Below are positions 4,307 to 27,990 of a stretch of DNA of 30,110 nt, one piece after another; position 1 is the stretch's first letter, and every line of letters starts with the position of its first letter. The DNA is from a virus. A program made the position numbers and the translations under genes. The stretch is from the IMG/VR virus record IMGVR_UViG_3300042381_000460, positions 1-30,110 of that record, one strand, 5' to 3'. The notes under the pieces are model-generated. The model made no database searches. It was not told the DNA's origin and was given only the letters and a program-made list of their open reading frames with translations.

Positions 4307-4783
4307 TTATTTTTGTGGCTTGGCTCTATGGATAAAAACCAATCCAGGAAGAGTTCCATTTGACCATGCGATCCTGCCCGATTGCTCAAATCCATTTTTC
4401 AAATAGAAGTGGCATGCACGTTCATTTTCTTCACGAACTGACAGATACACATTGGCTGCACATTCGGCACAGAATCGTTTCATGACTTCAGACGCATCAA
4501 TACGCTTGTCTACATTTCTATATGGATTCAATATCTGATGAAGTATGAAATCGCCTCGCTGGGCTTCAACATTACCAATACGCTGTCTACGCTTGTATTG
4601 ATTGAAAATGATTATGACCCCATCTTCGTAAATGACGTTGCCTGCAAATATGTTTCGCTCAACATAATCTTTTCGTATGTGAGGAAACCACTCGCGGCAA
4701 TTATAGAAGTGACTAAAGATCTCATCTAGCTGATCTATTGTCGCTCTATTCAACTTCGTCTGGGAGGAGAGATTTAAGCTCAT
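4307..4783 (-). CDS. GNAT-family N-acetyltransferase-like protein, 158 aa
   Basis: The C-terminal half carries the GNAT pattern: a beta strand (NVYLSVREEN), then N-E-R-A-C-H-F-Y-L-K-N-G-F, the usual acetyl-CoA-binding helix and following loop, then a strand ending in LVFIHR. Such enzymes transfer an acetyl group from acetyl-CoA to an amine on protein or small molecule; the substrate is unknown here. The ATG at 4781-4783 has GGAG six bases upstream; a longer frame to 4801 would need a TTG. The gene overlaps the end of the GNAT/oxygenase fusion by 38 bases, so two acetyltransferase-like domains are encoded side by side. No membrane segment is seen. Confidence 0.8.
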   Translation of the reverse strand: MSLNLSSQTKLNRATIDQLDEIFSHFYNCREWFPHIRKDYVERNIFAGNVIYEDGVIIIFNQYKRRQRIGNVEAQRGDFILHQILNPYRNVDKRIDASEVMKRFCAECAANVYLSVREENERACHFYLKNGFEQSGRIAWSNGTLPGLVFIHRAKPQK

Positions 4784-12454: not shown

Positions 12455-13747
12455 TTAGTCCAATCGTATTCTTGGGAAAGGCAATTTGTAACAGTATCGG
12501 ACATTTTGCTTATTAAACACCAGATAAGTGTTGACAGGATAATTTGTAGGAGAAAGATTAGAACGAAACAATGGACGACCATCATGATATGGACCAGTGT
12601 TTCTAAATTCATCGACAATTTTTGTGCCTTTTATTATTTTTGCGGTCTTGACTGAACGAAACTCTGTTGGCAAAATTAACACACCGCCACGGTCTGGAAA
12701 CTCAGACTGCTTTAATAGTCTACCATACTTCAGACCATCTTCAAAGTTAGAGGACACAATACTGCACGATGAAACAACACTATTGTCTTTAGCTGTGTAT
12801 GTGTCACTTTTAGGTGCAATGCGACCTCGCTTTTGTACAGCAATAATATCTCGCATGATTTGATTATACATCGAAGTTGGTATGAAATGATTGCGCGTTC
12901 TAGGGTCTTTAAAACCTTGCTTATAACTAAGACCGTTACCCTCTTGTGTCCACACAAAAGCAACTTCACATCGGTTTGCATATTTTTCTAATTGTTGAAA
13001 CAAAGGAGCACCAGAATGAAAATAGTTTTTTGTGCCTGAGTTTTCACCAAGGGCAGGTCTATTTGCATACTTAACATCAGCTCCATCCATGTTGTACACG
13101 CAAGGCTCTTTAAGAGCCGGGTAAAGTCCGTGACCTTCTACAAGGTCTGCATTAACAATTCTTCGTGTGCTCAACGATGCTTTATGTGGATTCCACACAA
13201 TGCGAGCATTAGGAAACAAGTCTCGTGTCCATGCAATCAACACGCGGCCAGCAGTTGCGGAAACATTACTCTCTAACCCAGGATTTATCATCAATGTTGT
13301 ATGTGGCTGAAGATGCTGTGACAACACATTTTGAATAGGTTTAACATAGTTGACATACTTCTGCTTTAAGGCAACATCTTTTGCAACAAGTTTTTTGTTC
13401 CAAGTTGCAACAGATCCAACATTATATAAAAATTCATATTTGCCAAGGCGATTGTTTCTGTGACCAGGTTCGTTTATTAAGTTCACTTCAAGTGTCTTTA
13501 GCCTGGGGTCTGCAAGCAAACGTTCTAAGCAAGAAAAGTTGTTGCCAAATGTGTTATACAAAAATGCTATGTGTAGTTCTTCCAATGGAGCTATAGATTT
13601 TATGTAGCCCTCACAATTAAACTTATTGGCCGTCAGGTTGAATGTCGCATAACCAACGTTTGGAAGCCCTTGGGCGATTGCAACTGAACTTATTGGAACA
13701 AAAAGTGGCACAACAAGAATCAAAATGGAGAGCAATATGTTTTTCAT
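12455..13747 (-). CDS. exported protein, possibly TIM-barrel hydrolase-like, 430 aa
   Basis: The N-terminus (MKNILLSILILVVPLF and following to about residue 28, ending AIA before QG) is a typical Sec signal peptide with a signal peptidase I site, so the mature protein should leave the cytoplasm. The body alternates strands and helices and contains NEPGHRNNRLG, LMINPGLES, VWNPHKAS, EGHGLYP and FVWTQEGNG, reminiscent of loops at the ends of strands in a glycoside hydrolase-like barrel with Asn-Glu and Glu candidates. Several cysteines could pair. I cannot name a family; a polysaccharide- or cell-wall-active enzyme is a guess. The ATG at 13745-13747 is preferred over a GTG nine bases upstream. 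It stands between primase and reductase genes and is odd in that context. Confidence 0.75.
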   Translation of the reverse strand: MKNILLSILILVVPLFVPISSVAIAQGLPNVGYATFNLTANKFNCEGYIKSIAPLEELHIAFLYNTFGNNFSCLERLLADPRLKTLEVNLINEPGHRNNRLGKYEFLYNVGSVATWNKKLVAKDVALKQKYVNYVKPIQNVLSQHLQPHTTLMINPGLESNVSATAGRVLIAWTRDLFPNARIVWNPHKASLSTRRIVNADLVEGHGLYPALKEPCVYNMDGADVKYANRPALGENSGTKNYFHSGAPLFQQLEKYANRCEVAFVWTQEGNGLSYKQGFKDPRTRNHFIPTSMYNQIMRDIIAVQKRGRIAPKSDTYTAKDNSVVSSCSIVSSNFEDGLKYGRLLKQSEFPDRGGVLILPTEFRSVKTAKIIKGTKIVDEFRNTGPYHDGRPLFRSNLSPTNYPVNTYLVFNKQNVRYCYKLPFPRIRLD

Positions 13748-13789
13748 GGTAAACACACAATAGTATATCTGTACTATGTATATTTGACA

Positions 13790-14047
13790 CTATCGGATTT
13801 TTATAAAAATTCTGGCAGACAGGCTAAACATTTCGTTCAGGTGTTGTCTATTTGGCAAGAAAAAGTTATCAGCATCTTCATGTACAGATCCACGAAGAAC
13901 TTCGTAGACTTCTGCATACTCAATCTTTGATAATGATTGTCCATCCACTTCTATAAAATTTGATGGGGTGTTACCAACCATTAATGCTGTCATATATCCA
14001 ACCGGCAACCAACAAAATGATTCTACAGAACTCACACTTTTTTCCAT
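13790..14047 (-). CDS. small tail-collar-domain-like protein, 85 aa
   Basis: Residues about 14-65 resemble the phage tail collar domain: PVGYMTALMVGNTPSNF, then EVDGQSLSKIEYAEVYEVL and NFFLPNRQHL, matching the family pattern of G-x-x-P, a DGQ-x-L-s-x-x-x-Y-x-x-L core and a terminal LP segment. Collar domains usually form part of tail fibres or short-fibre proteins much longer than this. Here the domain stands almost alone, next to primase, with which it overlaps by 16 bases at 14032-14047. It may be a small fibre-associated protein or a remnant of a larger fibre gene. Confidence 0.65.
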   Translation of the reverse strand: MEKSVSSVESFCWLPVGYMTALMVGNTPSNFIEVDGQSLSKIEYAEVYEVLRGSVHEDADNFFLPNRQHLNEMFSLSARIFIKIR

Positions 14048-15042
14048 TTACAAAACTCCAACTGTGCTTCAAGACCACTGAACGTGCGTTTTTGTATTAT
14101 GTGTTGTATATCGCGCAATGATGTGCCAGATAGTATCATGTCATTTATATCTTTCTGCACGATGTTGGACGTCCAGATACAAACTTTTTTATTCTTGTTG
14201 ATTGATGATTCAATCATCTTCACGATCTCACGATTGCGCGGCTCATTGTCGTATACAAGAACTAAGTTGTCGTTTTTAGTTTTATCAATAACAGACGCAA
14301 GATCAGAATTGGCAGCAGCAATACAGTTTGGCAAAAACAAACTGTCGATTGGACCTTCAACAACATAACCAGTTTTTGATGGGTCAAATCGCTCAAGACC
14401 AAATATTAAATCAGTATTACTCGTCGCACGAATTGTTATGTATCGGAGCGACTTCTCAGGAGAGAATGAACGACCTTGTAAACCAGTCAGATTGTTCTGT
14501 GTATCAAAGAATGGTATAATCAGTCGAGGCTCGTTTTTTTGAAGATTCTCATATTTGCCCGGAAACACATCATCAACAAGACCAGCAAAATCATCAGTAA
14601 AAAAAAGTCGAGAGTAATACTCGGCTGGAATCTTTCTACGAATTACATACTGCTTTGCATAGTGCTCATCTGACATCTCAGACAACTTAATTGCTTTCTC
14701 AGAGTAAAACTTCGATAGTACAATTTTTGTTACAGGTTCAACTGATGCTTTTGTCTTCTTTGTGTCTACACCAGATTTGTATTTCTCAAGCAAGTATTGT
14801 TCGTGATATGCAGGAAAGTAATTCTTGAGAAAGTTTGCAACGCCAAGACCAGAACCACAGTTGTGGCACTTGAAGTACATCGAAGTGCCTTTTTGATAAA
14901 AGTAGCCGCGAGCTTTTGACTTTTTTCTTTCGCTGTCACCACAAATAGGACACGAACAATTGAAGAGGTTGTCTTTCTTTTTCTTAAAGTTGCGAAGATG
15001 TATACCTACAGTCGTAACGTATTTCAAATCGACATATAACAT
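14032..15042 (-). CDS. 61: DNA primase (T4 gp61 / DnaG type), 336 aa
   Basis: Primase makes the RNA primers for lagging-strand synthesis with helicase gp41, encoded at 26578-27990. The zinc-binding domain is at residues 31-62 (CPIC and CHNC). A Toprim-like catalytic domain follows, with YVVEGPIDSLF (Glu229, Asp232) and VLVYDNEPRN (Asp265), and the RIIPFFD-type strand before it (about 173-180). Length fits T4 gp61 (342). The ATG at 15040-15042 has no Shine-Dalgarno sequence and lies seven bases after a TATACT box, so a leaderless mRNA is possible. Confidence 0.92.
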   Translation of the reverse strand: MLYVDLKYVTTVGIHLRNFKKKKDNLFNCSCPICGDSERKKSKARGYFYQKGTSMYFKCHNCGSGLGVANFLKNYFPAYHEQYLLEKYKSGVDTKKTKASVEPVTKIVLSKFYSEKAIKLSEMSDEHYAKQYVIRRKIPAEYYSRLFFTDDFAGLVDDVFPGKYENLQKNEPRLIIPFFDTQNNLTGLQGRSFSPEKSLRYITIRATSNTDLIFGLERFDPSKTGYVVEGPIDSLFLPNCIAAANSDLASVIDKTKNDNLVLVYDNEPRNREIVKMIESSINKNKKVCIWTSNIVQKDINDMILSGTSLRDIQHIIQKRTFSGLEAQLEFCKWKKV

Positions 15043-17203: not shown

Positions 17204-17554
17204 CTATTTGCTTTCGTTTTTTGGTTTTTTGCGAATGAGTGGTTCTTGAATGTTTGCAATTCCACCACCAGAGATCGAATTTACTGGAACACCATCTTCG
17301 TCAACTTGCTTTAATTTTGTATAGTAGTCTGGAAGTTCCTTGAGGTGTGCTAGAACTATTTTACCCAAATCTTTCTCAGATCCAACAACATCAAGTTCAG
17401 AACCATCATCATGCTCGCTCTCAACACTTAGACCAATTCTAAACTGTTCGATGTCAACTTTGTTCCAATCCACGTCTAGCTTGTCACCAACGCGCTGTGC
17501 ATCTTCTTTTGAAAAGTCTTTTGATTCAGTAATAAATTGAAAGTAAGTTCTCAT
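17204..17554 (-). CDS. DUF5661-like protein with capsid-targeting-type N-terminus, 116 aa
   Basis: The start MRTYFQFITE before S matches the tagged-protein pattern seen in five other genes here. The body (FSKEDAQRVGDKLDVDWNK, then EQFRIGLSVESEHDD and GKIVLAHLKELPDYY) follows a conserved family I recall as DUF5661, with unknown function, found in phages and bacteria. The C-terminus is basic and disordered. The ATG overlaps the stop of the preceding gene (ATGA), and GAGG lies five bases before it. If the tag is used, a prohead protease would cut after Glu10, and the remainder would be packaged in the head. The domain name is from memory. Confidence 0.75.
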   Translation of the reverse strand: MRTYFQFITESKDFSKEDAQRVGDKLDVDWNKVDIEQFRIGLSVESEHDDGSELDVVGSEKDLGKIVLAHLKELPDYYTKLKQVDEDGVPVNSISGGGIANIQEPLIRKKPKNESK

Positions 17555-17964
17555 AAGCTCCTCAAAACATTTATGATGTGTGAGTCGAGTGGTATATCAG
17601 TTGTCAGAATCTCACAGTTTTCTAAAAACGTGAGTTTGTCTGGCATAAAGTTTAAGTATACAAGAAACGTTTTGAGTTGTGACCAGTGATCGCTGTCAAT
17701 CTTGAAGAACAAAAGATTTGTGGCAACTTCAACTGGAAACACATTAAACAAAATGATCAAGTGATTAAGAATCAATCTCTCTTTGAGTTCAGTGTTTGTT
17801 TGGTATCGAATAAATAAACGCTTGATGTAGTTGATGCGTTTAAGGTCATCGTAAAATTCATCAATGTCAATGCACTGAACATTGTCGTAGTGTTTCATGG
17901 CATACATGACAATATTTTTTTCAGTTAAATGCAAGCTCATATTTTCAACAAATTCATTTAACAT
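17551..17964 (-). CDS. conserved T4-like phage protein, 137 aa
   Basis: The protein reads MLNEFVENMSLHLTEKN, then HYDNVQCIDIDEFYDDLKR, YIKRLFIRYQ, LKERLILNHLIILFNVF and LLFFKIDSDHWSQLKTFLVYLNF. This block order is well conserved among T4-like marine phages; its function is not established. It is helical with a hydrophobic core and no membrane segment. It overlaps the tagged gene downstream by four bases (ATGA), which suggests coupled translation. Confidence 0.8.
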   Translation of the reverse strand: MLNEFVENMSLHLTEKNIVMYAMKHYDNVQCIDIDEFYDDLKRINYIKRLFIRYQTNTELKERLILNHLIILFNVFPVEVATNLLFFKIDSDHWSQLKTFLVYLNFMPDKLTFLENCEILTTDIPLDSHIINVLRSL

Positions 17965-18004
17965 TAGTTCACATCATATAGCTACAACAATGTTCTGTTT
18001 AAGA

Positions 18005-18862
18005 TTATTCTAGGCCAGCATCGTCTTCAGTTACGTCACTAGCATCGAGTTTTAATTCCACGTCAGCTTTCACTGTGGTAGAATTAATACCCAAATTTTC
18101 TACAACAAACTGAACAGTATTTACAGAAGATCCTGAGTCAGAGTGCAAAGATATAGTTGCCACTTTTTCTGTAGGTAGGAAAGGTCCTCTAGTTATTCCT
18201 GGTGTTAATTCAACTCTTGGTAAGTCTAAATGAACATTAGGATTTTGTCCAAAATATATCAAATATTTTGTTCCCGCAACGGCGCCTGCTGGCCAAGTAT
18301 ATACCCTACTTGAGCGAGCAAACCCAGGTATAATATCTCCGGCTCCTGTGGGTTTGCTATACAGTGCTAAAAATGGACGTGAAGTTGTAGAATCAAGAGT
18401 GACTACAGCATACGCAGAAAAATCACTCAAATTTATATCGTGAGCTTGGCCATCAAAATAATACCAATTAACCTTTTTTCCAGAGGAATCGTTTTTGAAA
18501 TACCATCCAGGACGACCATTAGGATCTTCTATTCCAGGAGCGGCACCACCATTAGCAAGAACATTACTATTAAATAAATCTGCTTCTATAAACTCAACAT
18601 TATTAATTGACTCTCTATCTTCATCAGAGATTGCAATAAGAAGTTCAAGACGTGTGCGCTCTTCGGCTGTACCTTTCTTAGTGGTAAGAACCGTGTACCA
18701 TCCAGCACCAGAGGCGCCCTTAGTAGAGTTTGCAATAGCTTCTTCTTTAGACAAGTATACAAGTTTCTTGCCAGATGCATCATGAGCAAGTGTGCCGTTG
18801 GCTTTTAGCTTAACTGATTTTGGTCGAGCTGTTGTTTTATCTTCTTTACCCCAGAGTGCCAT
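18005..18862 (-). CDS. probable virion structural protein, 285 aa, beta-rich
   Basis: The protein starts MALWGKEDKTTARP, an opening I recognise in structural proteins of T4-like marine phages, and contains GASGAGWYTVLTTKKGTAEERTR early. The middle region (GRPGWYFKND, VNWYYFDGQ, then LALYSKPTG) is rich in aromatic residues and turns and looks like a beta-sandwich, possibly binding sugar or decorating the capsid. The C-terminal 60 residues are strand-like with an acidic end. GGAG lies nine bases before the ATG at 18860-18862, and a late-type promoter lies 30 bases upstream. The frame continues to 18877 only through a TTG. Late expression and the sequence character support a virion role; which part of the particle is unknown. 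Confidence 0.75.
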   Translation of the reverse strand: MALWGKEDKTTARPKSVKLKANGTLAHDASGKKLVYLSKEEAIANSTKGASGAGWYTVLTTKKGTAEERTRLELLIAISDEDRESINNVEFIEADLFNSNVLANGGAAPGIEDPNGRPGWYFKNDSSGKKVNWYYFDGQAHDINLSDFSAYAVVTLDSTTSRPFLALYSKPTGAGDIIPGFARSSRVYTWPAGAVAGTKYLIYFGQNPNVHLDLPRVELTPGITRGPFLPTEKVATISLHSDSGSSVNTVQFVVENLGINSTTVKADVELKLDASDVTEDDAGLE

Positions 18863-18892
18863 ATCAATTATCTCCAATTAAAAGTTATACTT

Positions 18893-18900
18893 TATTTATT
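18893..18900 (-). promoter_or_regulatory. late-type motif AATAAATA before structural gene
   Basis: Minus-strand AATAAATA matches seven of eight bases of the T4 late element and overlaps the stop codon of the gene at 18896-19483. It lies 30 bases before the ATG at 18862 with the GGAG ribosome binding site between them. Confidence 0.5.
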
Positions 18901-19483
18901 TGAATCCCAGACGCTTTAATTTACTAATCACTTCTATAGTAGTTGTGCGCTGAATTGCCAGACCACCATGAGCTTTGTACTCTTGACAATTCTTGATGAA
19001 ATCGTCAATAAGTATTGTGGGCGTACCATCAACAACAGCAAAATCTTTTTTCTGTGAACGCTTTACAAGATGAATGTTACCAAGGTTTTTATACCCTAAA
19101 AACTTTGCTAACCAACGTTTCTTGCCATTCTTACACGTAGTAGCGAGTGTGCCACAGGCACTGAGAATGTGTGGCTTGTACTTCTTCACAAAGTTCCAGA
19201 GGGCTTTACCGTCAGGTAAAAAGTCAAGGTCTTCCCAGAAGTTTGGTGTTGTGTTAAGAATTTGCCACTTAATCTTTTCAGCCTCTTCTTCAGTGTGATT
19301 CTCTGTCCAGTACGGATCATTCCATGATGGCTTGCCGGCGCGCTCAAGTGCGCTATCGGCACCTTTCATCCAGTCTACAATCGTTTCGTCCATATCAAGA
19401 TAGATTTCAGGAAGAGCAGTTGTAACCGCAACATCACCATCTGTCTGAACATTTTCTATCAAATATGTACGAAACGACTTCAT
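18896..19483 (-). CDS. HAD-like phosphatase/nucleotidase with capsid-targeting-type N-terminus, 195 aa
   Basis: Residues 1-11 read MKSFRTYLIEN, the tag pattern shared by six proteins here. Behind it, YLDMDETIVDW (Asp30, Asp32) is the nucleophile motif of HAD phosphatases, HILSACGT (about 105-112) fits motif II, and PTILIDDFIKN (Asp160, Asp161) is the metal-binding motif IV. The size and the motif IV ending resemble 5'(3')-deoxyribonucleotidases. Such an enzyme would dephosphorylate nucleotides or a related substrate. Cleavage after Glu10 would release a complete HAD domain, compatible with packaging and delivery into the new host. The ATG at 19481-19483 follows the upstream stop by three bases. 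Confidence 0.8.
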   Translation of the reverse strand: MKSFRTYLIENVQTDGDVAVTTALPEIYLDMDETIVDWMKGADSALERAGKPSWNDPYWTENHTEEEAEKIKWQILNTTPNFWEDLDFLPDGKALWNFVKKYKPHILSACGTLATTCKNGKKRWLAKFLGYKNLGNIHLVKRSQKKDFAVVDGTPTILIDDFIKNCQEYKAHGGLAIQRTTTIEVISKLKRLGFK

Positions 19484-19486
19484 ATA

Positions 19487-20602
19487 CTATCTCGTCGAAT
19501 GTGCGTTATACTCAGGGTTGTAATATTTTGTTGGGACGCGGCGGGCGATGTCAGACAACAATGACTGAAGTTTTAACAGGCTTGTGCGTTCGTCACCTTG
19601 TACAAAAATTGCGCTGTATACTGGCTCTCGCACGCCACTATTATCATGCACAGCCCAGGCAAGTTTGCCGGGAGCTTTTGGACTTGGCTCAAGGGTAACA
19701 GTAAGTTTTGCACTATCTTGTTCTACTTCTAATGAGTAGCTAACGTTATTTTTGATAACGCCAACTTTTGCGTTTTGAACACTTCTTCTGATAAGAGAGA
19801 TTGTTTTCTTATCAAGATCAGTAACAACAGCTGCTTCAGTAATATCTTCAGTTGTTTCGTCTGCTACTTTTTGATGGGGAGAGTCGCTTGCGTCAGCAAG
19901 TGCCCTTTCACACACATCACAGAACCAAGGAAGACCTTCAACAATATCACGAAGTGCATCAACCGTTGGAGCACCAGGTAAAACTACTGGCGGAACAATC
20001 TGTGGCAACGTGTTTGTGTTGAATTGTGCAAAGAGTCTGTATTCTGTTGTTCCATCGACTGGAGAAGAATCTCTAAGAACATCAGCATGAACAGGAAGTT
20101 GCTTTGAAGCATCAGTCACGCCAAGGGCACCATTTGTTGCAAGCTCATCGGGGTCTGCACCTTCTTTGACGCAAGAGCCCTTTTCATATGCCTTTACACC
20201 AGGCGTAGGTTTGTAGCCGTCCCAGCAACGCTCTTCAAGATCGTCTTTCTCTTCAGCGTCGGTGGCTTCAACGCTCGAATCTTCTTCGTCTTCGTTTTCA
20301 CCAAGTTCTTTCTTTTTCTTAGCATCTTCATCTCCAGCAGTGTGATATACTTCATCTCCAGGCATATCATCTTCATCCATTGAGTCGCACGAACAATCAG
20401 CTTCTGTCAGTTGATTTTGAACATACGCATAGAACGCTTTTTTATCTTGCTCAGACAACTCCGATGCAGACGATACTTTAAACTTCTTTAGTGCTTCACT
20501 AAACAATGTCTTTTTCAATTTAGTACGAGTTTCCGAACTCTTGGAAACAACTTCACTTACTGCACTAATAAGTGACTTGGATATATCTTTAATAGATGCC
20601 AT
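19487..20602 (-). CDS. acidic virion/prohead-core-like protein with prohead protease-type sites, 371 aa
   Basis: The N-terminal 65 residues are helical and basic. Then come QLTE before A (65-68), an acidic Asp/Glu-rich stretch (70-125), CWDGYKPTPG (126-135) with KAYEKGSC (137-144), a loosely structured middle with paired cysteines (PWFCDVCER, about 225-232), and DITE before A (253-256). Two I/L-x-E sites before Ala match the gp21 protease rule. The CWxGYKPTPG motif recurs, as I recall, in internal or core proteins of T4-like phages. The plan of helical head, acidic linker and cleavable sites fits a scaffolding-core or internal protein. AGGAG precedes the ATG at 20600-20602. Function is inferred. 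Confidence 0.75.
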   Translation of the reverse strand: MASIKDISKSLISAVSEVVSKSSETRTKLKKTLFSEALKKFKVSSASELSEQDKKAFYAYVQNQLTEADCSCDSMDEDDMPGDEVYHTAGDEDAKKKKELGENEDEEDSSVEATDAEEKDDLEERCWDGYKPTPGVKAYEKGSCVKEGADPDELATNGALGVTDASKQLPVHADVLRDSSPVDGTTEYRLFAQFNTNTLPQIVPPVVLPGAPTVDALRDIVEGLPWFCDVCERALADASDSPHQKVADETTEDITEAAVVTDLDKKTISLIRRSVQNAKVGVIKNNVSYSLEVEQDSAKLTVTLEPSPKAPGKLAWAVHDNSGVREPVYSAIFVQGDERTSLLKLQSLLSDIARRVPTKYYNPEYNAHSTR

Positions 20603-20609
20603 GACTCTC

Positions 20610-21479
20610 CTAGATGGAATGATTTGTAAAACTTATCAACTTTCTTGTTGACACTACTTCAAAGAAAGTTTTTTCGTTGACTGTATTTAGCTTATCCAGA
20701 TTGAACACGGTATCACACCAGATAGGTCTGTAGTGTAATGTTTTGTGTTTTGGAATAATGAAGATCTGCCCTGATGTGCGCATTGCACCCTTTCTTGGAT
20801 CTACACGCAACGGGTTCATTTGTGGATCACTGTCATTTATGAGTGACAGCACATCAATGAGTTGATCAAACGTGGAAGCACGTTTTAGACCTTCGTTTAC
20901 TTTTTCATATCGAACATCAGAACTTTTGCGCTTTGTTACTTCTTGTGGCACATCAGCACTATAGCCAGTCCAAGGTAAAAAAATACCATGATTTGTTCTA
21001 ACAGCAATATGAGTTGTTGGAACTTCGACAACTTCATACACATACTCGTTTGTGTTGAGAAACCCAGCTTCAATTAGAAAGCATCTGTTTTTGTCTGCAA
21101 CAATAGTGTTACCTGGTATTTGAAATTCAATAACTTTGCGAATCGCATCGAACGCGGTTTTCTCAAAGAGTGCTTTGCGAATTCTCAAACCGTCCGGTGA
21201 GTAGTACACGCGAGGTGTTTTTGTGAGGCGTGAATTGTACTTTGTTGCAATTGCACCTTCAATCTCATCTGTTGTTGTTGAAATACTGGCAGACACAATT
21301 GCAACACCGTGTTCATTAACACCCTCAGTGTACTTTGTCTTTTGGTCCCATAACAACAGGCGTTCAACATTGGTGCGAAAAGATTTGCGCACACGAATCA
21401 CAGGCTTATATACTCTGTCACGATTCTTTGCTATGACCCATCCGATGTCGTCAAAATATTTGCAAGCAACGATTGACAT
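20610..21479 (-). CDS. Ntn-hydrolase-like protein (C45/choloylglycine hydrolase or NRDE-type), 289 aa
   Basis: The opening (MSIVACKYFDDIGW, then VIAKNRDRVYKP) with Cys6 and NRDR, followed by NEHGVAIVSASIS, resembles N-terminal nucleophile hydrolases of the choloylglycine/penicillin acylase and C45 families, and the NRDE (TANGO2) family. GNTIVADKNRCFLIEA and IAVRTNHGIFLPW (with Asn-His) fit the C45-type core. These enzymes cleave linear amides after self-processing exposes the Cys; here the Cys is not at position 2, so processing would have to remove five residues, or the nucleophile differs. The product could act on a host peptide, an acyl-amide signal or another phage protein. It sits in the block of virion-internal candidates. 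The ATG overlaps the upstream stop (TAATG). Confidence 0.75.
   Translation of the reverse strand: MSIVACKYFDDIGWVIAKNRDRVYKPVIRVRKSFRTNVERLLLWDQKTKYTEGVNEHGVAIVSASISTTTDEIEGAIATKYNSRLTKTPRVYYSPDGLRIRKALFEKTAFDAIRKVIEFQIPGNTIVADKNRCFLIEAGFLNTNEYVYEVVEVPTTHIAVRTNHGIFLPWTGYSADVPQEVTKRKSSDVRYEKVNEGLKRASTFDQLIDVLSLINDSDPQMNPLRVDPRKGAMRTSGQIFIIPKHKTLHYRPIWCDTVFNLDKLNTVNEKTFFEVVSTRKLISFTNHSI
20684..20690 (-). promoter_or_regulatory. CTAAATA late-type motif inside a gene
   Basis: CTAAATA on the minus strand lies inside the C-terminal coding part of the Ntn-hydrolase gene, about 80 bases before the ATG of the acidic core-like protein at 20602. It could be an internal late promoter or coding coincidence. 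Confidence 0.25.
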
Positions 21480-21664
21480 TACGTCTTCTTCACATAATCA
21501 GTTGTGTAGAAACCAGATCCTTTAAATTGAGGATTAGCTGTCGCCGAAAGAATGCGTTTAATTTGAGCATCACAGACTGGGCAGGTTTTCAATGCGTTAT
21601 CTGTGATGCTTTGGCGAACTTCTATGATTCCACACTTCTTACATTCGTATTCGTAGTATGGCAT
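21479..21664 (-). CDS. FmdB-type zinc ribbon protein, 61 aa
   Basis: MPYYEYECKKCG with a second pair CPVC (about residues 28-31) gives the four-cysteine FmdB-type ribbon, followed by a short tail ending FKGSGFYTTDYVKKT, the GSGFY-TDY ending typical of this family. It overlaps the next gene as TAATG. It is the second FmdB-type ribbon in the window and is shorter than the one at 798, whose tail is different. Function unknown. Confidence 0.88.
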   Translation of the reverse strand: MPYYEYECKKCGIIEVRQSITDNALKTCPVCDAQIKRILSATANPQFKGSGFYTTDYVKKT

Positions 21665-21682
21665 AATAACTCACAACAGAAA

Positions 21683-21952
21683 TTACTGAGTAACAGTTTC
21701 ATCAGACTCAGCTTCAGTAGTTGTTGTGTCGTTTTCTTGTGCTTTCTTAATAAGCGAGTTTGCAACAACAGCTACCGTATCAAGTGCTTGCGACCATTGA
21801 TTGGCAAGAAATCCAGGCACACGATCAAACTTAGAAAGAAAGTCATGTACACTGCGAAGGGCTGCAATTTCTTGTTCAGATGTAAGCGTTGGAAGTTCAG
21901 GTGCTGCTGTAACTTCTGCTTCTTGTGTTGCTTCTGCTGTATCATTACTCAT
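21683..21952 (-). CDS. small acidic protein with Thr/Glu-rich ends, 89 aa
   Basis: The N-terminus (MSNDTAEATQEAEVTAAPE) and the C-terminus (Thr/Glu runs) are disordered and acidic; the middle (LRSVHDFLSKFDRVPGFLANQ and following) is helical with a hydrophobic core. The ATG at 21950-21952 has GGAG six bases upstream and is preferred to the ATG at 21964, which has none. No family is recognised. It lies between a zinc ribbon gene and a tagged gene, in the block of probable virion-internal genes. Confidence 0.65.
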   Translation of the reverse strand: MSNDTAEATQEAEVTAAPELPTLTSEQEIAALRSVHDFLSKFDRVPGFLANQWSQALDTVAVVANSLIKKAQENDTTTTEAESDETVTQ

Positions 21953-21994
21953 ATTATTCTCCATTAAACAAAAATCATTTCACTACTATGTATA

Positions 21995-22315
21995 TCAGAT
22001 CCCTGGCGTAGCTTTTCTATATGCCGCAACAGCCTCATCTGTGCCATCTTCAACATATTCATTTACGGCTTCAGCATCTGGATCATTGATTACATCAGCA
22101 TCAGATTCTTTCAGTCGCTCTGCATTCTTTTTTATTTCCACAGCTTTGCGGTCTGCTTCTTTCTTTCTAAAGTCTTGTTCACGAGCACGTTCAAGTTCTC
22201 TGGTTTGGCGAACTTTGAGTGCACCTTTGTCACGCGTATTACGCTCACGGACACGGTCTTCAGCTGATGGAGGTCCGTCTGTTGCTTCTTGTATGAATGT
22301 TTTGAAGTCTTTCAT
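21995..22315 (-). CDS. charged coiled-coil protein with capsid-targeting-type N-terminus, 106 aa
   Basis: The protein starts MKDFKTFIQE before A, the tag pattern; the ATG at 22313-22315 is chosen for this reason, since the longer frame to 22372 is the shadow of the nucleotidyltransferase gene. Residues about 20-75 form one long, extremely charged helix (Arg/Glu/Lys: RVRERNTRDKGALK, then ERAREQDFRKKEADRK), and the C-terminus is acidic (DADVINDPDAEAVNEYVEDG). T4 internal proteins are also small and highly charged. A CTAAATA element ends seven bases before the ATG. I infer an internal head protein; no enzymatic motif is present. Confidence 0.75.
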   Translation of the reverse strand: MKDFKTFIQEATDGPPSAEDRVRERNTRDKGALKVRQTRELERAREQDFRKKEADRKAVEIKKNAERLKESDADVINDPDAEAVNEYVEDGTDEAVAAYRKATPGI

Positions 22316-22322
22316 AGTGCTA

Positions 22323-22329
22323 TATTTAG
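22323..22329 (-). promoter_or_regulatory. CTAAATA late-type motif just before tagged gene
   Basis: The motif overlaps the stop codon of the nucleotidyltransferase gene and ends seven bases before the ATG at 22315, with no ribosome binding site between. Transcription from it would begin nearly at the ATG. Confidence 0.35.
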
Positions 22330-23339
22330 TCGTCAATATCTTTATATGTTGTCTTTGGATACTCATGCGCATATTGCAACAGGTCTTTCATCTTTACACT
22401 AACTATGTAACAAGATACTGTCGCGTCTTTATCCAAAGTTTGTAGTGCCAACAACTGATGGTGTCCATCTAATATGAAGTTGTCGTAAGAAACAATAAAT
22501 GGCTTTGGCTCTTTTTTACCATTAACAAATTTTTCGTGCTTTTCTCGCACCTTGTTCATATTAATTTCTGATTGTGTTGGCTTCAAATTTCGCACACTCA
22601 CACTACGTTTTGCAACGGTCACGCCGTGGGTATTGAGCAATTTAATAAAATCTGGTATATGCTCACGTTTAATTTGAGGCATGTTTTTGCGGGGAATGTT
22701 TAGTGTATTTTTTAAACGCTGGATGTCTTCTACCTTTTCTACAATATTCATTGCTTTACGCAAGGCATCAAACAACTCACGAGCATATTTGTCACTTAGA
22801 TTTGACAAGGCGCCGCGTTTAAATGTGACAAAATCATTTGATGCTGCTGCCTGGCGCATTTTTGTTGCGCTCATACCTTCGGCACCTTCAGCATCAGGAT
22901 CACGGGCACCGGCGCTTACAACTTTGAACGAATTAAGATTTAAACTTTTAGCTGGATCTGGATGATTTACATAACTGCCAATAGACTTTTTAAAATCTGA
23001 CACACGGTCATCACCAGCAATCATGATTACATCTGTGTAACCAAGATCTATAAGATGTCCAACCGCATCGAATGGTGTTTTAATTGATGCGGTTGCTTTA
23101 ATATACTTCTCAGCTTTTGGCACACCAAGTCTCAAGTATTTTGCTTTTTGTGTGCTTGTCAGTGGATTCTTTTTTGCATCTTGTGTGTGAGAAACAAAAA
23201 TAAATGGCTCTGCGTTTTCTTTGCGGGCCACTGCAATTACTTTGTCAATAAGTTTTTCATGACCCATGGTAGGAGGATTCATTCGACCAAATGCAAACAC
23301 AGCTGTTTTCTTTTTGACAACTTCAGCCAATGTTTTCAT
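22326..23339 (-). CDS. fusion: cytidylyltransferase-type nucleotidyltransferase plus ParB/sulfiredoxin-like domain, 337 aa
   Basis: Residues about 12-200 carry the nucleotidyltransferase alpha/beta fold: FGRMNPPTMGHEKLI with TMGH (24-27) as the nucleotide-binding site, and SATKMR (157-162) as the second motif, as in NMN or pantetheine-phosphate adenylyltransferases. Residues about 222-320 resemble the ParB N-terminal/sulfiredoxin fold: NLKPTQSEIN, PFIVSYDNFILDGHHQLLA with DGHH at 291-294, then a strand and helix. The first half could transfer AMP or CMP to a small molecule or a protein; the second could bind or cut nucleotide triphosphates or nucleic acid, as ParB domains do with CTP. The start shares MKT with the tagged set but lacks the I/L-x-E site. 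The ATG overlaps the preceding stop (ATGA). Confidence 0.85.
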   Translation of the reverse strand: MKTLAEVVKKKTAVFAFGRMNPPTMGHEKLIDKVIAVARKENAEPFIFVSHTQDAKKNPLTSTQKAKYLRLGVPKAEKYIKATASIKTPFDAVGHLIDLGYTDVIMIAGDDRVSDFKKSIGSYVNHPDPAKSLNLNSFKVVSAGARDPDAEGAEGMSATKMRQAAASNDFVTFKRGALSNLSDKYARELFDALRKAMNIVEKVEDIQRLKNTLNIPRKNMPQIKREHIPDFIKLLNTHGVTVAKRSVSVRNLKPTQSEINMNKVREKHEKFVNGKKEPKPFIVSYDNFILDGHHQLLALQTLDKDATVSCYIVSVKMKDLLQYAHEYPKTTYKDIDD

Positions 23340-24391
23340 TTCATCCCCAATTTACGAAGAGTCTTGTATACGTCAGGTGCATGTAGTTTTACATACTCGG
23401 CAGCTTCTGGATTGTTTAGTTGTTTTGGCAATTTGTCTAATGTTGACTTGAGAAGTTCAAAACGCGTTTTCAACACTTCATCATAGTATTGGTACAAACG
23501 CGCTAAAACTTTTTTATTACTATCAGAAGTCAAGTGGCTAAAAAAATTCTTTTTAGAACTTGGCATCTTTTCTTTGATCTCTTTGATTGCAAACTGCTTG
23601 TCTGTTATATACTGAACAAACATGTTGTAGTTGATTTGAAATTTGTGAGCCATAAACATTGCATCTTCATATTGGTCATGATTCTTTGCAGTATTAAACT
23701 TACCAACAAATCGACTCTTAAGTGTCGTGACGATGCTGAGGTAGTATGTTTTATACCACGCATCAATATTCATGATTAACTCTTGCGTATGTGCGTTCAG
23801 CTCTTTTGGGTGATTAAAATATTCTTTGCCATAGCCTGTTTTGTTGTCGTATGATGGCACGTCTGTATACGCCACATTCCTATAACGAAGAGCATCCATG
23901 TGATGTACAAACTCATGAACAAAAATGTCTCGAACATCTTCTTTACGCTGTTTGATTACATTGAGTAGATGTTTATAATTGCTCGCATCTTTAAATCGAA
24001 GAAACGCATCAGAATATATCCAGCCGTTGTGATCGTCGTATGAAGTTCCGGTTGGCTTAAATGATGGATCTCGATTTTTGCGACTACTCATAATGGCAAG
24101 TTCTATAAAAATTTGTCCAGAGAGTTTGCCATACGAGCCAGCTCGCTCACGAGTAGACGATGTGAACATTATACTCACATTTTCATACTTATCATCAGCA
24201 ATAAACTTACCTAAATTGAACGTGAGTGCAGGATTTTTTGTTCGCTCAACTTCCATGTGATCTATAGAGTTTGATTTGACCAATCTTTCGAGTGTGGCAA
24301 TCATCCGATTGAATACACGCAGAGCTTCAGATCGATATTGCTTATCGACGGAAGGATTAGCCTCTACAATGTATTCAACAAAACTCTTCAT
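23336..24391 (-). CDS. HExxH metallopeptidase-like protein with capsid-targeting-type N-terminus, 351 aa
   Basis: MKSFVEYIVE before A is the tag. The body has VHEFVHHMD (HExxH at 159-163) and, about 35 residues on, HPKELNAHTQEL with Glu197 or Glu204 as the possible third zinc ligand, as in gluzincin-type metallopeptidases. The region in front (ISIMFTSSTRERAGSYGKL, then SGQIFIELAI) gives the strands expected before the active-site helix. The C-terminal 140 residues are helical and basic. No signal peptide is present, so it would act in the cytoplasm or, if the tag works, in the virion and then the infected cell. Target unknown. It overlaps both neighbours by 1-4 bases. Confidence 0.8.
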   Translation of the reverse strand: MKSFVEYIVEANPSVDKQYRSEALRVFNRMIATLERLVKSNSIDHMEVERTKNPALTFNLGKFIADDKYENVSIMFTSSTRERAGSYGKLSGQIFIELAIMSSRKNRDPSFKPTGTSYDDHNGWIYSDAFLRFKDASNYKHLLNVIKQRKEDVRDIFVHEFVHHMDALRYRNVAYTDVPSYDNKTGYGKEYFNHPKELNAHTQELIMNIDAWYKTYYLSIVTTLKSRFVGKFNTAKNHDQYEDAMFMAHKFQINYNMFVQYITDKQFAIKEIKEKMPSSKKNFFSHLTSDSNKKVLARLYQYYDEVLKTRFELLKSTLDKLPKQLNNPEAAEYVKLHAPDVYKTLRKLGMK

Positions 24392-24633
24392 TAGTTCGTG
24401 TGAGCAATCTTCACGGCTTTTACAGACGCAGTAGCAAGCAATGTGTGTGATGGTGTTTTTTGAATATTCAAAACCTCACCGGCTGCTACAGTCAAAGATG
24501 CCACAGTTGTGCTACCATCTTTAATTGTTACAGTTGTTGCACTACCAGTATTAACGACACGAACTACAGATGCAAGTTCTACGTCAGTTGCAGATGCAAG
24601 CGATGTTTCTTGTGACAATGGTTTAACGATCAT
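24391..24633 (-). CDS. small beta-rich virion-like protein, 80 aa
   Basis: The protein opens MIVKPLSQETSLASATDVE and then alternates Val/Thr strands (VVRVVNTGSATTVTIKDG, TVASLTVAAGEV), a small beta-sandwich pattern I recall from proteins of T4-like marine phages that are considered virion components. It has no Cys, no basic patch and no membrane segment. AAGGAG lies before the ATG at 24631-24633, a strong ribosome binding site suggesting high expression. Its stop overlaps the next start as TAATG. A capsid decoration role is a plausible guess. Confidence 0.7.
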   Translation of the reverse strand: MIVKPLSQETSLASATDVELASVVRVVNTGSATTVTIKDGSTTVASLTVAAGEVLNIQKTPSHTLLATASVKAVKIAHTN

Positions 24634-24650
24634 AATTTTCTCCTTACGGT

Positions 24651-25214
24651 TTATATAGACTTAGTAACTTTGTAGTACATTGTATCAGTGTCGCGAGAGT
24701 CATACCCCCACTGTGCCTTAACTATGATGATACCATCTTTTGTGGACATTTCACTCTTTCGATATCCATGTGGTATCATGTATTGCTTGAGAGCATCTTC
24801 AGGTGAAGTGCCTTTAATACCAACAACTGCGCCAACTTTACGTTTTGTTTTTGGTCCATCAAGAACATCAAAGTCATATTTAATTAGTGCAGATTCTGTC
24901 ACTTTTGATACAGGCTTGGACGACCACATTTTGCATGACCAATAGTTAGCTTTCCATTTAGGACCTGGATCATCGCAGTTGTGGCGAGCACGATAGTTTG
25001 CCCTACGTTCAGGATCATCGCGCTTAATTTCCATGTTTGGATCACCAAAATTTACTTTGACTACGTTGTTGTCATTCTTGACATACACAGAAAACTTCTT
25101 TGGTCCATCAGGTGTTCTGAATGGTTTGTTTAACGTAACTTTCTTGCCCTGATACTCAGACTCTTCGTGAATGTCTTCGTTCGATTCTGTTAAATATGAT
25201 TTAAATTTTTTCAT
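24651..25214 (-). CDS. DUF6321-like protein with capsid-targeting-type N-terminus, 187 aa
   Basis: MKKFKSYLTE before S is the tag; the ATG at 25212-25214 is chosen because the longer frame to 25274 is the shadow of the upstream gene. Residues about 30-100 contain PFRTPDGPKKFSVYVKN, NFGDPNMEIKRDDPERR and ARHNCDDPGPKWKANYW followed by SCKMW, a block I recall from a phage family annotated DUF6321, with paired cysteines that could bind zinc. The C-terminal part is strand-helix with a basic end. The gene follows the KxDG protein gene by four bases and shares its tag almost letter for letter (MKKF-K/R-x-Y-L/I-TES), so the tag may have spread by duplication. Confidence 0.78.
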   Translation of the reverse strand: MKKFKSYLTESNEDIHEESEYQGKKVTLNKPFRTPDGPKKFSVYVKNDNNVVKVNFGDPNMEIKRDDPERRANYRARHNCDDPGPKWKANYWSCKMWSSKPVSKVTESALIKYDFDVLDGPKTKRKVGAVVGIKGTSPEDALKQYMIPHGYRKSEMSTKDGIIIVKAQWGYDSRDTDTMYYKVTKSI

Positions 25215-25218
25215 AGTT

Positions 25219-26442
25219 TTACCAGCCTTTATCCAGCGTGAAGTTTGCTCGACTAAATTCAAGTCTATCAACAAGTTTTACTGCATTACCTTTCATGTGA
25301 TCTACTGCAACAAAACCTTCAGGTGATGTCACTTTGAATCCATCAGGCGTCTCTAAAAACGTACCAATAGAGTTCACCTTTCGTAGCTTACTTAACAGAA
25401 CACCTTTGACATCTGCAATAAGAGCTGCAATCAAGAACATAAGAATAAACTGTTCACGATTTGTTTTGATAAATGACACGTGTTGTTTGAGCCGATCTTT
25501 GCGACCTTGTTTGCCGCGATCTGTTTTGAGCTTATCAATTTCTTTCTGATACTTGTCTGTAATAAATTCAATAAGACCCTTAGCATACTTTTGAGTGCCA
25601 GTGATGTTTTCGCCAACCTTTACTTTAGAATTCACATATGTTTTGATAAATGAAACAATCTCATCATCTGTTACAATCTCATTGATGATTGCAGAGTCCA
25701 TACGATTAAACTGTCGACCAATTTCACTTAAACGTGTAGAGACGTATGTGGTTTCATCTTTTGTGAGAGTTGCTGTTCCAGACTCATCTCTAAAATCAGC
25801 ATCAGTCACCCATACATTTGATGTTTTCTTGAGTGATGATATGTTTGCACCAAACGATGCTTTCATATCTTGAACAGTCTTACCAGTGTACGTTGTGTGA
25901 AACACGATGCCGATGTTAGCTGCACGAATAGCACCAGCAAGGTCTGAATCTTGTGGCACAGCATATGTAATTGTGTTAGCTCTAAATGAAAGAAATGATT
26001 CACCGTTGTGTTCTATGTTTTGTAGTTCACCCTTTGTGAATAGTAAGTCGCCCTGAAGAATACCTTTAATACCCAACGTTGAAAGATTGTCGAGAGCGAT
26101 GCGAAGTTTGTCGATGAGAGTTGTTTGACCAGAGTGGTTCTTTTCAATATCATCATGAGTATAGTTTAACTTTGGAGTTTTATTGAATGCGCTTTTTGTT
26201 GCAACAAAGAACTTTCCGTTTTCTGGATTGATACCACAAACGATTGCAGGCGCTCCGTCCCATTTAACAGTAACATTGACTGATGCATTTGAGCTGCCTG
26301 AGAGCATGTCTCGCAAGCCTCTCAAGAAATTGATAGCTCGTCGAGTCCCGTTGACACCGCCGTTGAACACCTCATCTTCCAAATGTTCAAGATGGGAATT
26401 CTTATCAGCAGATTCAGTTATGTATTGTCTAAATTTTTTCAT
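25219..26442 (-). CDS. DUF6267-like KxDG nucleotidyltransferase/ligase-like protein with capsid-targeting-type N-terminus, 407 aa
   Basis: MKKFRQYITE before S is the tag (ATG at 26440-26442; a GTG 18 bases upstream is the alternative). VTVKWDGAPAIVCG (Lys60, Asp62, Gly63) has the lysine-x-Asp-Gly motif of the ligase/capping nucleotidyltransferase superfamily, with later ILQGDLLFTKG (about 128-137) as a candidate metal motif and SPEGFVAVD near the C-terminus matching the superfamily motif IV pattern E-G-x-V. I recall the family as DUF6267 in T4-like phages. It could be an RNA or DNA end-joining or adenylylating enzyme. A CATAAATA element and then a 27-base leader precede it, so late expression is likely; with the tag this suggests an enzyme packaged in the head. 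Confidence 0.82.
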   Translation of the reverse strand: MKKFRQYITESADKNSHLEHLEDEVFNGGVNGTRRAINFLRGLRDMLSGSSNASVNVTVKWDGAPAIVCGINPENGKFFVATKSAFNKTPKLNYTHDDIEKNHSGQTTLIDKLRIALDNLSTLGIKGILQGDLLFTKGELQNIEHNGESFLSFRANTITYAVPQDSDLAGAIRAANIGIVFHTTYTGKTVQDMKASFGANISSLKKTSNVWVTDADFRDESGTATLTKDETTYVSTRLSEIGRQFNRMDSAIINEIVTDDEIVSFIKTYVNSKVKVGENITGTQKYAKGLIEFITDKYQKEIDKLKTDRGKQGRKDRLKQHVSFIKTNREQFILMFLIAALIADVKGVLLSKLRKVNSIGTFLETPDGFKVTSPEGFVAVDHMKGNAVKLVDRLEFSRANFTLDKGW

Positions 26443-26577: not shown

Positions 26578-27990
26578 CTACCACTTAAAGTCATCAGTAT
26601 CTTTTTTCTCAGCCATCATAGATGAACCAAATTTGGATTTATCAAACGACGAGGTATCTTTCTTATCTTTCATGTTGGTGTCTACAAGTTCATCTTGCGC
26701 AGATTGGTCGAGATCAAACAATCGCATTTTGGATCTATCGATACCCAACACGAAGCGTTTCAGTGTAGAGATGTCATTGTATCGATTCTTGAGCTGTTTA
26801 ACGAGAATCTGACCCATCTGCTCAAGTTCTTCTGTCGATGATAGCGCAATCATAAAGTCAGCAGTTGCTGGAAGACCAAATGACTCTGAAGTATTTTCAA
26901 GTCCGATGTCACTCGATACGAAGCCTTGTCTGTTTGTTTGAGTTGCAGTCCAGATTGGAACATTACACTCTACTGCAAGTCCACGAAACTCTTCTGCAAT
27001 GCTCTTGACGTATGTGTAGCTGTTGACATGATTCGATTGGTTCAATCGAGCACTTGCAGATATGTTTAAGTAGTCAACAAAGATAACGTCGGGCACAAAA
27101 TTCTTTTTTAAATACAACTCACTCAACAATGCTCTAAAGTGAGTAACAGATGCAGTTGCAGTTGGATACTCTTTAATAATCATTCGACCAACTGTCTTAT
27201 TTTTGATCGCCGCAATCTTTCTATCGTACATATCTTTTGATATGCTTTGAAGATCTGATAGAGAGATGTTAAGCAAGTTTGCATCGATTCGTTCTGCAAT
27301 TCTTGCTTCTGCCATTTCAAGCGTAATGTACAAAACATTTTTGCCATTCATAAAATAGCTCGCGGCCATGTGACACAGTGCGAGAGATTTACCAACGGCA
27401 GTTCCAGCAAGTATAACATTGAGTGTTTTACGTGGTACACCATTCTTTGTAATCTTGTTCATACAATCAAGATCAAACGCAAACTTCTCTTCTACTTTGT
27501 GATAGAACTCATATCGCGAATCAGTGTCATCAAGATAACTATGTCCGATGTTTGGATCAAATGACACTGAAAGTGCATCTGTTAGTAGTTTAGGAATAGT
27601 GCCGCGAGAAAGTTTTCCTTTCTTATCATCAGCAATTTTGATGCTGTTCATGAGTGCATGGTAGATTGCACGATCTTTACACCACTCTTCAGTCTGATCA
27701 ATTAGCCACTTTTGCTCAACTCGTATTGGCTCAAGTGATACAACAACATCTTTTGCTTGCTTCTCTACAGAGTCAACAAGTTGTTTGTCATTTGATATTG
27801 CAATGACAAGTGCTTCTTTTGAAGGCAAGGCATCATACTTTAAAATGAAGTCTGAAACTTTCAGAAAGACAAGTTTCTCACACTCATCAGAAAAGTATTC
27901 AGCTTTAATAAAAGGAAGCACTCGTCTACAGTATGTCTCATCATTGAGAAGACTACTAAGAATGACAGACTCAATTCGATCATTTATCAT
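26578..27990 (-). CDS. 41: replicative DnaB-type DNA helicase (T4 gp41), 470 aa
   Basis: This hexameric helicase unwinds the fork 5' to 3' on the lagging strand and partners the primase. Visible motifs are GTAVGKS (196-202, Walker A), VIFVDYL (302-307, Walker B) and WTATQTNRQG (about 345-354, the DNA-binding H3-like region), then a Gly-Leu-Pro-Ala segment and RFVLGIDRSKMR. Length is close to T4 gp41 (475). The C-terminus ends with a Lys/Asp-rich tail (KDKKDTSSFDKSKFG). It overlaps the upstream gene by 11 bases and forms part of the T4-like order gp43, uvsX, small gene, gp41. Confidence 0.95.
   Translation of the reverse strand: MINDRIESVILSSLLNDETYCRRVLPFIKAEYFSDECEKLVFLKVSDFILKYDALPSKEALVIAISNDKQLVDSVEKQAKDVVVSLEPIRVEQKWLIDQTEEWCKDRAIYHALMNSIKIADDKKGKLSRGTIPKLLTDALSVSFDPNIGHSYLDDTDSRYEFYHKVEEKFAFDLDCMNKITKNGVPRKTLNVILAGTAVGKSLALCHMAASYFMNGKNVLYITLEMAEARIAERIDANLLNISLSDLQSISKDMYDRKIAAIKNKTVGRMIIKEYPTATASVTHFRALLSELYLKKNFVPDVIFVDYLNISASARLNQSNHVNSYTYVKSIAEEFRGLAVECNVPIWTATQTNRQGFVSSDIGLENTSESFGLPATADFMIALSSTEELEQMGQILVKQLKNRYNDISTLKRFVLGIDRSKMRLFDLDQSAQDELVDTNMKDKKDTSSFDKSKFGSSMMAEKKDTDDFKW

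Follow-up and report, generated by a model that had tools for sequence, protein, structure and literature searches.

A capsid-targeting-type N-terminal tag on six unrelated proteins points to a probable head cargo island in an uncultured T4-like phage

Introduction

The internal proteins IPI, IPII and IPIII of phage T4 carry a capsid targeting sequence (CTS) (Mullaney and Black 1996; reviewed in PMC9026906 and PMC3012670). In IPIII, the first ten residues are enough for packaging, and mutations have assigned residues 4 and 7 to targeting and residues 8 and 10 to processing (PMC9026906); the portability of the T4 tag has already been published and proposed to be general for T4-like phages (PMC9026906). 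T4 heads also package Alt, an ADP-ribosyltransferase that is loaded in the prohead, processed by the gp21 protease and ejected into the host (PMC9026906), and the 61.1-dmd region of T4, between genes 61 and 41, has been proposed as an anti-toxin-antitoxin island (PMC9391042). The present analysis concerns the virus record IMGVR_UViG_3300042381_000460, the whole 30,110 bases of which are referred to as the window, and in particular a locus of six genes whose products share a tag of the T4 CTS type on otherwise different bodies.

These six proteins are best explained as T4-type head cargo, a reading to which we give a probability of about 0.86, in which the tag would target each protein to the prohead, be removed by a gp21-type cut and leave a body delivered with the DNA. 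Capsid targeting of the tagged proteins is very likely because of the match of the tag to the T4 sequence, the profile statistics, the synteny, the protease and gp23 site of a sister genome, and the detection of tagged cyanophage proteins in virions. Cleavage and injection would follow by analogy with T4, and most of the enzymatic activities are putative.

Six tagged genes in one locus

The window covers part of a T4-like phage genome and has recognizable genes for UvsX, the gp41 helicase, the gp61 primase, a B12-type ribonucleotide reductase, a T4-type RNase H and PhoH. A near-identity DNA search against phage genomes returned a single match, of 57 bases in the primase gene, and therefore the virus has no cultured close relative. 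The six tagged genes are all on the minus strand and all between gp41 and gp61, in a cluster of about 9 kb. A reading of the DNA alone (hereafter, the sequence-only reading) had reported their N-termini, coordinates and frames, which proved correct, and all six starts are ATG. The features of the locus are as follows, with a slash at the predicted cut:

26578..27990, minus strand: gp41, DnaB-like helicase (phrog_19, E=2e-121), left boundary of the cargo interval
26413..26442, minus strand: tag MKKFRQYITE/S (start at 26442) of the DUF6267 protein, at the same position in most IMG/VR DUF6267 relatives
25219..26412, minus strand: DUF6267 body with motifs KWDG, QGD, EG and K (Pfam PF19782, E=3e-117)
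25185..25214, minus strand: tag MKKFKSYLTE/S (start at 25214) of the DUF5754-like protein, from sequence and tag profile
24651..25184, minus strand: DUF5754-like body (Pfam DUF5754, E=1.4e-4, below cut-off; phrog_7595, E=3e-14)
24362..24391, minus strand: tag MKSFVEYIVE/A (start at 24391) of the putative metallopeptidase, from sequence and tag profile
23336..24361, minus strand: putative zincin-like metallopeptidase body of an orphan family (HExxH motif, HEFVHHMD)
22326..23339, minus strand: cytidylyltransferase/NMNAT-like protein with a ParB-like C-terminal domain (Pfam and PHROG), untagged (MKTLAEVVKKK)
22286..22315, minus strand: tag MKDFKTFIQE/A (start at 22315) of the charged coiled-coil protein, from sequence and tag profile
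21995..22285, minus strand: charged coiled-coil body, with an orthologue in the sister genome G001
19454..19483, minus strand: tag MKSFRTYLIE/N (start at 19483) of the HAD phosphatase-like protein, from sequence and tag profile
18896..19453, minus strand: HAD 5'-nucleotidase-like body (phrog_2643, 5'-3' deoxyribonucleotidase, E=2e-21; NT5C below cut-off)
17525..17554, minus strand: tag MRTYFQFITE/S (start at 17554) of the DUF5661 protein, from sequence and tag profile
17204..17524, minus strand: DUF5661 body (Pfam PF18905, E=1.5e-19, residues 19-86)
14032..15042, minus strand: gp61, DNA primase (phrog_47, E=2e-73), right boundary of the cargo interval

Another in-frame ATG lies 19 codons upstream of the start at 22315, the first start of the open reading frame (ORF) containing the start at 25214 is an upstream TTG, and a GTG is present upstream of that at 26442. 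The Glu at position 10, the Ile or Leu at 8 and the Ala, Ser or Asn at 11 that had been claimed for all six tags are present in each of them; residue 11, the P1' position of the predicted cut, is S, N, A, A, S and S in coordinate order. All six have Lys or Arg at position 2, Phe (five) or Tyr (one) at position 4, and Tyr (four) or Phe (two) at position 7, so that a CTS test based on aromatics at 4 and 7, Ile or Leu at 8 and Glu at 10 selects every one of them, and the experimentally important T4 positions (4, 7, 8 and 10) are all conserved in type.

The sister genome G001 (92.9 kb), with island DNA 79-90% identical to that of the window, has orthologues of all six genes, in the same order and each with its tag. 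Between the two sets of orthologues, tag positions 4 and 10 are invariant, position 8 changes once (L to I) and position 7 twice (Y to F, F to L), the remaining changes being at positions 2, 3, 5, 6 and 9.

Specificity of the tag

With the tag definition of the sequence-only reading, six of the 762 in-frame ATGs of the window match, all of them gene starts, and 23 of 15,464 (0.15%) match in five related genomes; fewer than 0.1 matches would be expected by chance for about 47 genes. For a profile covering residues 2-10, used at a threshold of 7, the training set consisted solely of 18 DUF6267 N-termini of other genera, which avoids circularity. The profile recovers the five other tagged genes of the window, with scores of 10.7-20.5, and no further gene start in the window at this threshold; a scan of the remaining genes of G001 (about 97) found no tag either. 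Against all 266 ORFs of T4 it gives four matches, namely IPI, IPII, IPIII and gp61.1, and none among the 396 genes of lambda, T7, N4 and SPO1. At internal ATGs, the profile has 12 matches in about 11,800, the frequency at gene starts being about 15-fold higher. Residue 11 lies outside the profile and was hence not used in training, and among the 31 non-DUF6267 tags from genomes other than the window and G001 it is Ala or Ser in 15, versus 12.7% in other genes (p=1.4e-6); this and the other p-values given here are only indicative, because the families are not fully independent.

Protease and putative cleavage site in relatives

The sequence-only reading linked the tag to the gp21 prohead protease, and a gp21 homologue was indeed found in G001, within a gp20-21-22-23 cluster. 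It aligns with the solved T4 gp21 (5jbl, E=1.6e-23) over the GELGHP and SRG regions, which we take to hold the catalytic His and Ser. Proteases of this type (S77) are encoded by G001 to G005; 20 further records were screened, of which 15 have one and five, namely lambda, T7, N4, SPO1 and one 88-kb fragment, have none. The major capsid protein of G001 (gp23) has IITE/S after residue 52, at the place of FLTE/A in T4 gp23, and three of the window's six tags likewise end in TE/S, the same ITE/S-type site.

The interval between gp41 and gp61

Across 14 genomes, 26 of 39 tag matches fall inside the gp41-gp61 interval, which holds 265 of the 3046 genes (p=2e-19); without DUF6267 and G001, the figure is 16 of 29 (p=8e-11). 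In T4, gp61.1 occupies the equivalent spot between genes 61 and 41, beside dmd and 61.2. This hypothetical protein of 54 amino acids (NC_000866.4 18966-19130; L350 1467-1631) starts MKTFKEFIKEDMVAG, has a CTS-like score and, judged from its sequence, may be an unrecognized internal protein.

Two untagged island genes of the window deserve mention in their own right. The product of 20610-21479 has a weak, below-cut-off likeness to C45 autoproteolytic acyltransferases (NF040521, E=6e-8), and that of 19487-20602 is a conserved acidic protein in which NQLTEADCS, some 65 residues from the N-terminus, may be an internal site of gp21 type. CTAAATA, a late-promoter pattern, precedes the portal gene of G001; the island has it at one conserved position, as a late-promoter-like element 88 bases upstream of the 19487-20602 gene, both in the window and in G001, but it was not seen before most of the tagged genes.

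Bodies with and without the tag

The portability claimed for the tag is borne out by the unrelatedness of the bodies and by the existence of DUF6267, DUF5661 and cytidylyltransferase homologues both with and without the tag. In most IMG/VR relatives of DUF6267 the tag directly precedes a conserved KNTHMTHIED, and the untagged DUF6267 proteins of S-SZBM1, P-SSM4 and S-RIM2 start exactly at the body, with MAKNTHLEHLED or MPNKHLEHPED/MPNKHLEHLED. DUF5661 carries the tag in T4-like relatives but not elsewhere, and the DUF5754-like domain, present at at least 599 loci, is located behind tags and also inside untagged phage proteins. The HAD protein of one genome (G010) retains a tag without its Glu. 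The tag is also found on other bodies, such as a DnaJ-domain protein (G008) and another HAD protein (G002 and G003), and which of DUF6267 and the cytidylyltransferase carries it varies among phages.

The DnaJ-domain protein (L338 9360-10358, G008 149360-150358; Pfam E=2.5e-8) has the tag MKNFKNFLIEI and belongs to a second tag cluster, away from gp41-gp61. The different HAD protein (L115 8686-9306 in G003; G002 157426-158043) carries TIFDIDDTLFHTT, and that of G003 weakly matches a polynucleotide kinase PHROG (3.7e-5). In two loci of other phages (L146 and L149), DUF5661 is fused behind a ParB-like DGHHRW domain, the domain type that ends the cytidylyltransferase of the window.

Identity of the bodies

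By Pfam and PHROG comparison the six tags are on six unrelated bodies, in agreement with the sequence-only reading. The description of the DUF6267 protein as KxDG nucleotidyltransferase-like is supported by the motifs of the covalent nucleotidyltransferase (RNA/DNA ligase) superfamily, with I as K60-x-D62-G63, III as Q130-G131-D132, IV as E375-G376 and V as K389, all of them invariant in 31 sequences. Its AlphaFold model has a predicted local distance difference test (pLDDT) value of 80 and a low-confidence helix spanning residues 2-14. Its top Foldseek matches include many RNA/DNA ligases and capping enzymes, none at E<=0.001 and with low template modelling (TM) scores, and comparison with Protein Data Bank sequences and solved-structure profiles gave no sequence match and no convincing relative. 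The HAD phosphatase-like assignment is likewise upheld (phrog_2643, E=2e-21; phrog_420, E=1e-19; DMDET as the DxDxT motif), with Pfam NT5C below cut-off, as is that of DUF5661.

The metallopeptidase-like call is a putative one based on the motif HEFVHHMD, the body having no Pfam or PHROG match. The HExxH is kept in all three sequences found and is predicted to be helical in a low-confidence model (pLDDT 61); tblastn in 50,697 phage records was empty, IMG/VR gave only two sister contigs, and a profile search against solved structures returned no convincing relative. A second HExxH-like motif (RHELQHYFLH) occurs in the window at 1896-2564, in a protein with a hydrophobic N-terminus and no Pfam match. 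The body proposed as DUF6321-like turned out instead to resemble DUF5754 weakly in Pfam and to match phrog_7595; the charged coiled-coil protein has no Pfam or PHROG match, and PADLOC and NCBIfam scans of the tagged proteins found nothing. The proposal of a set of enzymes thus stands for DUF6267 and the HAD protein, which are credible enzymes, and less so for the metallopeptidase, with its one motif, and for DUF5661, the DUF5754-like protein and the coiled coil, which have no known activity.

The untagged neighbour at 22326-23339 combines, by Pfam, an NMNAT-like cytidylyltransferase with a ParB-like domain, and falls together with DUF6267 within one PHROG profile, phrog_455. In S-PM2 (NC_006820.1, about 103653-104804), the cytidylyltransferase follows the DUF6267 C-terminus in one reading frame, as an untagged fusion, and the N-terminal part of DUF6267 is a separate ORF (103025-103603), which suggests that the gene is split or interrupted there. 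Because the two are fused in S-PM2, share phrog_455 and vary in which partner is tagged, the data are consistent with one complex that would need one tag.

Elsewhere in the window, 12455-13756, between the ribonucleotide reductase and primase genes, encodes a protein of 433 amino acids with a signal-peptide-like N-terminus and no Pfam or NCBIfam match, and 4746-5936 an aspartyl/asparaginyl hydroxylase-like protein (PF05118, E=6e-12).

Tagged proteins in cyanophage virions

Cytidylyltransferases of cyanophages start with MKSFLQFLKEA (S-SCSM1), MRFRQFIIEA (S-SZBM1) and MKNFSSFLTEA (S-CREM2), and the three tagged proteins were detected in virions purified on caesium chloride (PMC9602691, PMC9146016 and PMC10665884, respectively). 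Seven of the ten products of the S-SCSM1 island (genes 89-98), the NMNAT-like protein included, are annotated as virion proteins by mass spectrometry (PMC9602691), versus 45 of 282 genes overall (p=1.4e-4). Virions of S-SZBM1 contain three island proteins, the cytidylyltransferase among them (PMC9146016), and those of S-CREM2 contain ORF154 (the cytidylyltransferase) and its neighbours 155, 156 and 160 (PMC10665884); T4-GC190 was detected in S-SM1 virions and not in those of S-PM2 (PMC3037559). The S-CREM2 cluster is located after the late sigma factor, and the islands of S-SCSM1 and S-SZBM1 lie between gp41 and gp61. As far as their accessible text goes, none of these proteome papers (PMC9602691, PMC9146016, PMC10665884 and PMC3037559) mentions a targeting tag and those on the three tagged cytidylyltransferases give no cut site, and a full-text search of the papers available found none that applies the term capsid targeting to cyanophages.

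Cargo reading and its alternatives

In the proposed mechanism, residues 1-10 (M-K/R-x-F/Y-x-x-F/Y-I/L-x-E) would bind the prohead scaffold core through the aromatics at positions 4 and 7, and each tagged protein would thereby be co-assembled inside the prohead. A gp21-type protease would then cut after Glu10, recognizing I/L-x-E before a small residue, and the freed mature body would stay in the head with the DNA and exit with it at infection. The gp41-gp61 interval would serve as a conserved cargo island, where unrelated bodies acquire or lose the tag and it moves between them. The most likely job of such cargo would be first-minute host takeover or counter-defence.

Several points weigh against this explanation. 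Gene 21 is not in the window, which is a fragment, and the protease is known only from relatives; the search for gp21 in the window is uninformative because the record excludes the head gene cluster. In many DUF6267 relatives P1' is Glu, Gln or Asp, not Ala or Ser, and a gp21 cut before these residues would be hypothetical. The islands of HTVC008M and S-PM2 are nearly tag-free. We know of no virion proteome of this virus or its genus, nor of any instance beyond the T4-type coliphages in which a tag of this type has been seen cut. Several of the island proteins found in cyanophage virions are untagged, and therefore the tag is not the sole way in and other routes exist; the authors of the proteomes also state that detection in virions could be carry-over of abundant proteins.

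A more specific version of the cargo reading holds that the gp41-gp61 interval is a cargo island in T4-like phages worldwide and that its tagged proteins form an injected kit for the repair of RNA ends and nicotinamide adenine dinucleotide (NAD), countering tRNA-cutting or NAD-depleting defences before the phage expresses its own genes. Its members would be the ligase-like DUF6267, the NMNAT-like cytidylyltransferase (fused to it in S-PM2, adjacent elsewhere) and the HAD phosphatases; one tag per complex would suffice, and therefore either DUF6267 or the cytidylyltransferase would be tagged. This extension is tentative, and the odds are clearly against it. It is also unlikely, to a somewhat greater degree, that the tags target the prohead core and the proteins serve head assembly, as core or scaffold partners like T4 IPIII, rather than being delivered: polyheads form in T4 when IPIII is lost, gp22 is co-purified with internal proteins (PMC9026906), and a head/decoration-like protein (18005-18877, phrog_613) is encoded in the same island, but the bodies look enzymatic (ligase-type motifs, HAD, cytidylyltransferase), are variable and interchangeable among phages, and the essential head genes are located elsewhere.

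Far less probable is a role unrelated to heads, in which the shared N-terminus would be an ordinary helix that docks to some other partner, such as a membrane or replisome factor. The synteny with replication genes (between uvsX/gp41 and gp61) and the low-confidence helix at residues 2-14 of the DUF6267 model would fit it; nevertheless, the same profile selects three genuine internal proteins among the 266 genes of T4, residue 11 follows the gp21 preference, and tagged cyanophage proteins are present in virions. Finally, a functionless resemblance, due either to the 5' end of one gene having recently been duplicated or to chance convergence of lysine-rich N-termini, is hardly credible: MK starts are common and a looser definition matches 0.15% of ATGs, but positions 4 and 10 are fixed where the variable ones differ among copies and orthologues, tags at gene starts exceed those at internal ATGs about 15-fold and are absent in the four phages without gp21, and distant phages keep the tag on the same bodies.

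What is new with respect to the T4 literature is the proposal, for uncultured and marine T4-like phages, of a cargo island rich in enzymes. Experimental knowledge of the CTS comes from a few small proteins of coliphages; the head-cargo reading extends the CTS to a conserved locus with enzymes in abundant phages of this type, and offers a sequence explanation for the cytidylyltransferases repeatedly found in cyanophage virions, which the authors could not tell from contamination. A short signature would predict head cargo from sequence alone, T4 gp61.1 included, and the question of which proteins a phage injects becomes answerable with existing mass-spectrometry data.

Relation to described systems

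The ejection proteins of SPN3US and phiKZ resemble the proposed cargo in that a prohead protease distantly related to gp21 strips N-terminal propeptides from head and ejected proteins; they differ in having mostly far longer propeptides (often >100 residues) and, in phiKZ, an S/A-x-E cleavage motif (PMC9026906, PMC5694885). T4 Alt differs in its 7-residue propeptide and in that its C-terminus is cut too (PMC9026906), and no window protein matches an ADP-ribosyltransferase family in Pfam or PHROG. The 61.1-dmd region of T4 has the same genome position, and the profile also picks its gp61.1, whose N-terminus is MKTFKEFIKED, whereas dmd, tifA and 61.2 (adfA) have been described as inhibiting host toxins, with no claim of head packaging. 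The likeness to IPI-IPIII consists in a ten-residue N-terminal tag having aromatics at 4 and 7, Ile or Leu at 8, Glu at 10 and a small residue at 11, unrelated bodies with only the tag in common, and a gp21-type protease in the phage group; the T4 bodies, however, are small and basic (IPI being a restriction inhibitor), whereas those of the window, predicted here from the genes, include larger enzyme-like proteins. Of the virion-associated T4-GC190 cytidylyltransferase/NMNAT proteins of the cyanophages S-SM1, S-SCSM1, S-SZBM1 and S-CREM2, the last three have the same type of tag, within the same island in S-SCSM1 and S-SZBM1, and the window presents the reverse arrangement, with an untagged cytidylyltransferase and the tag on the neighbouring DUF6267.

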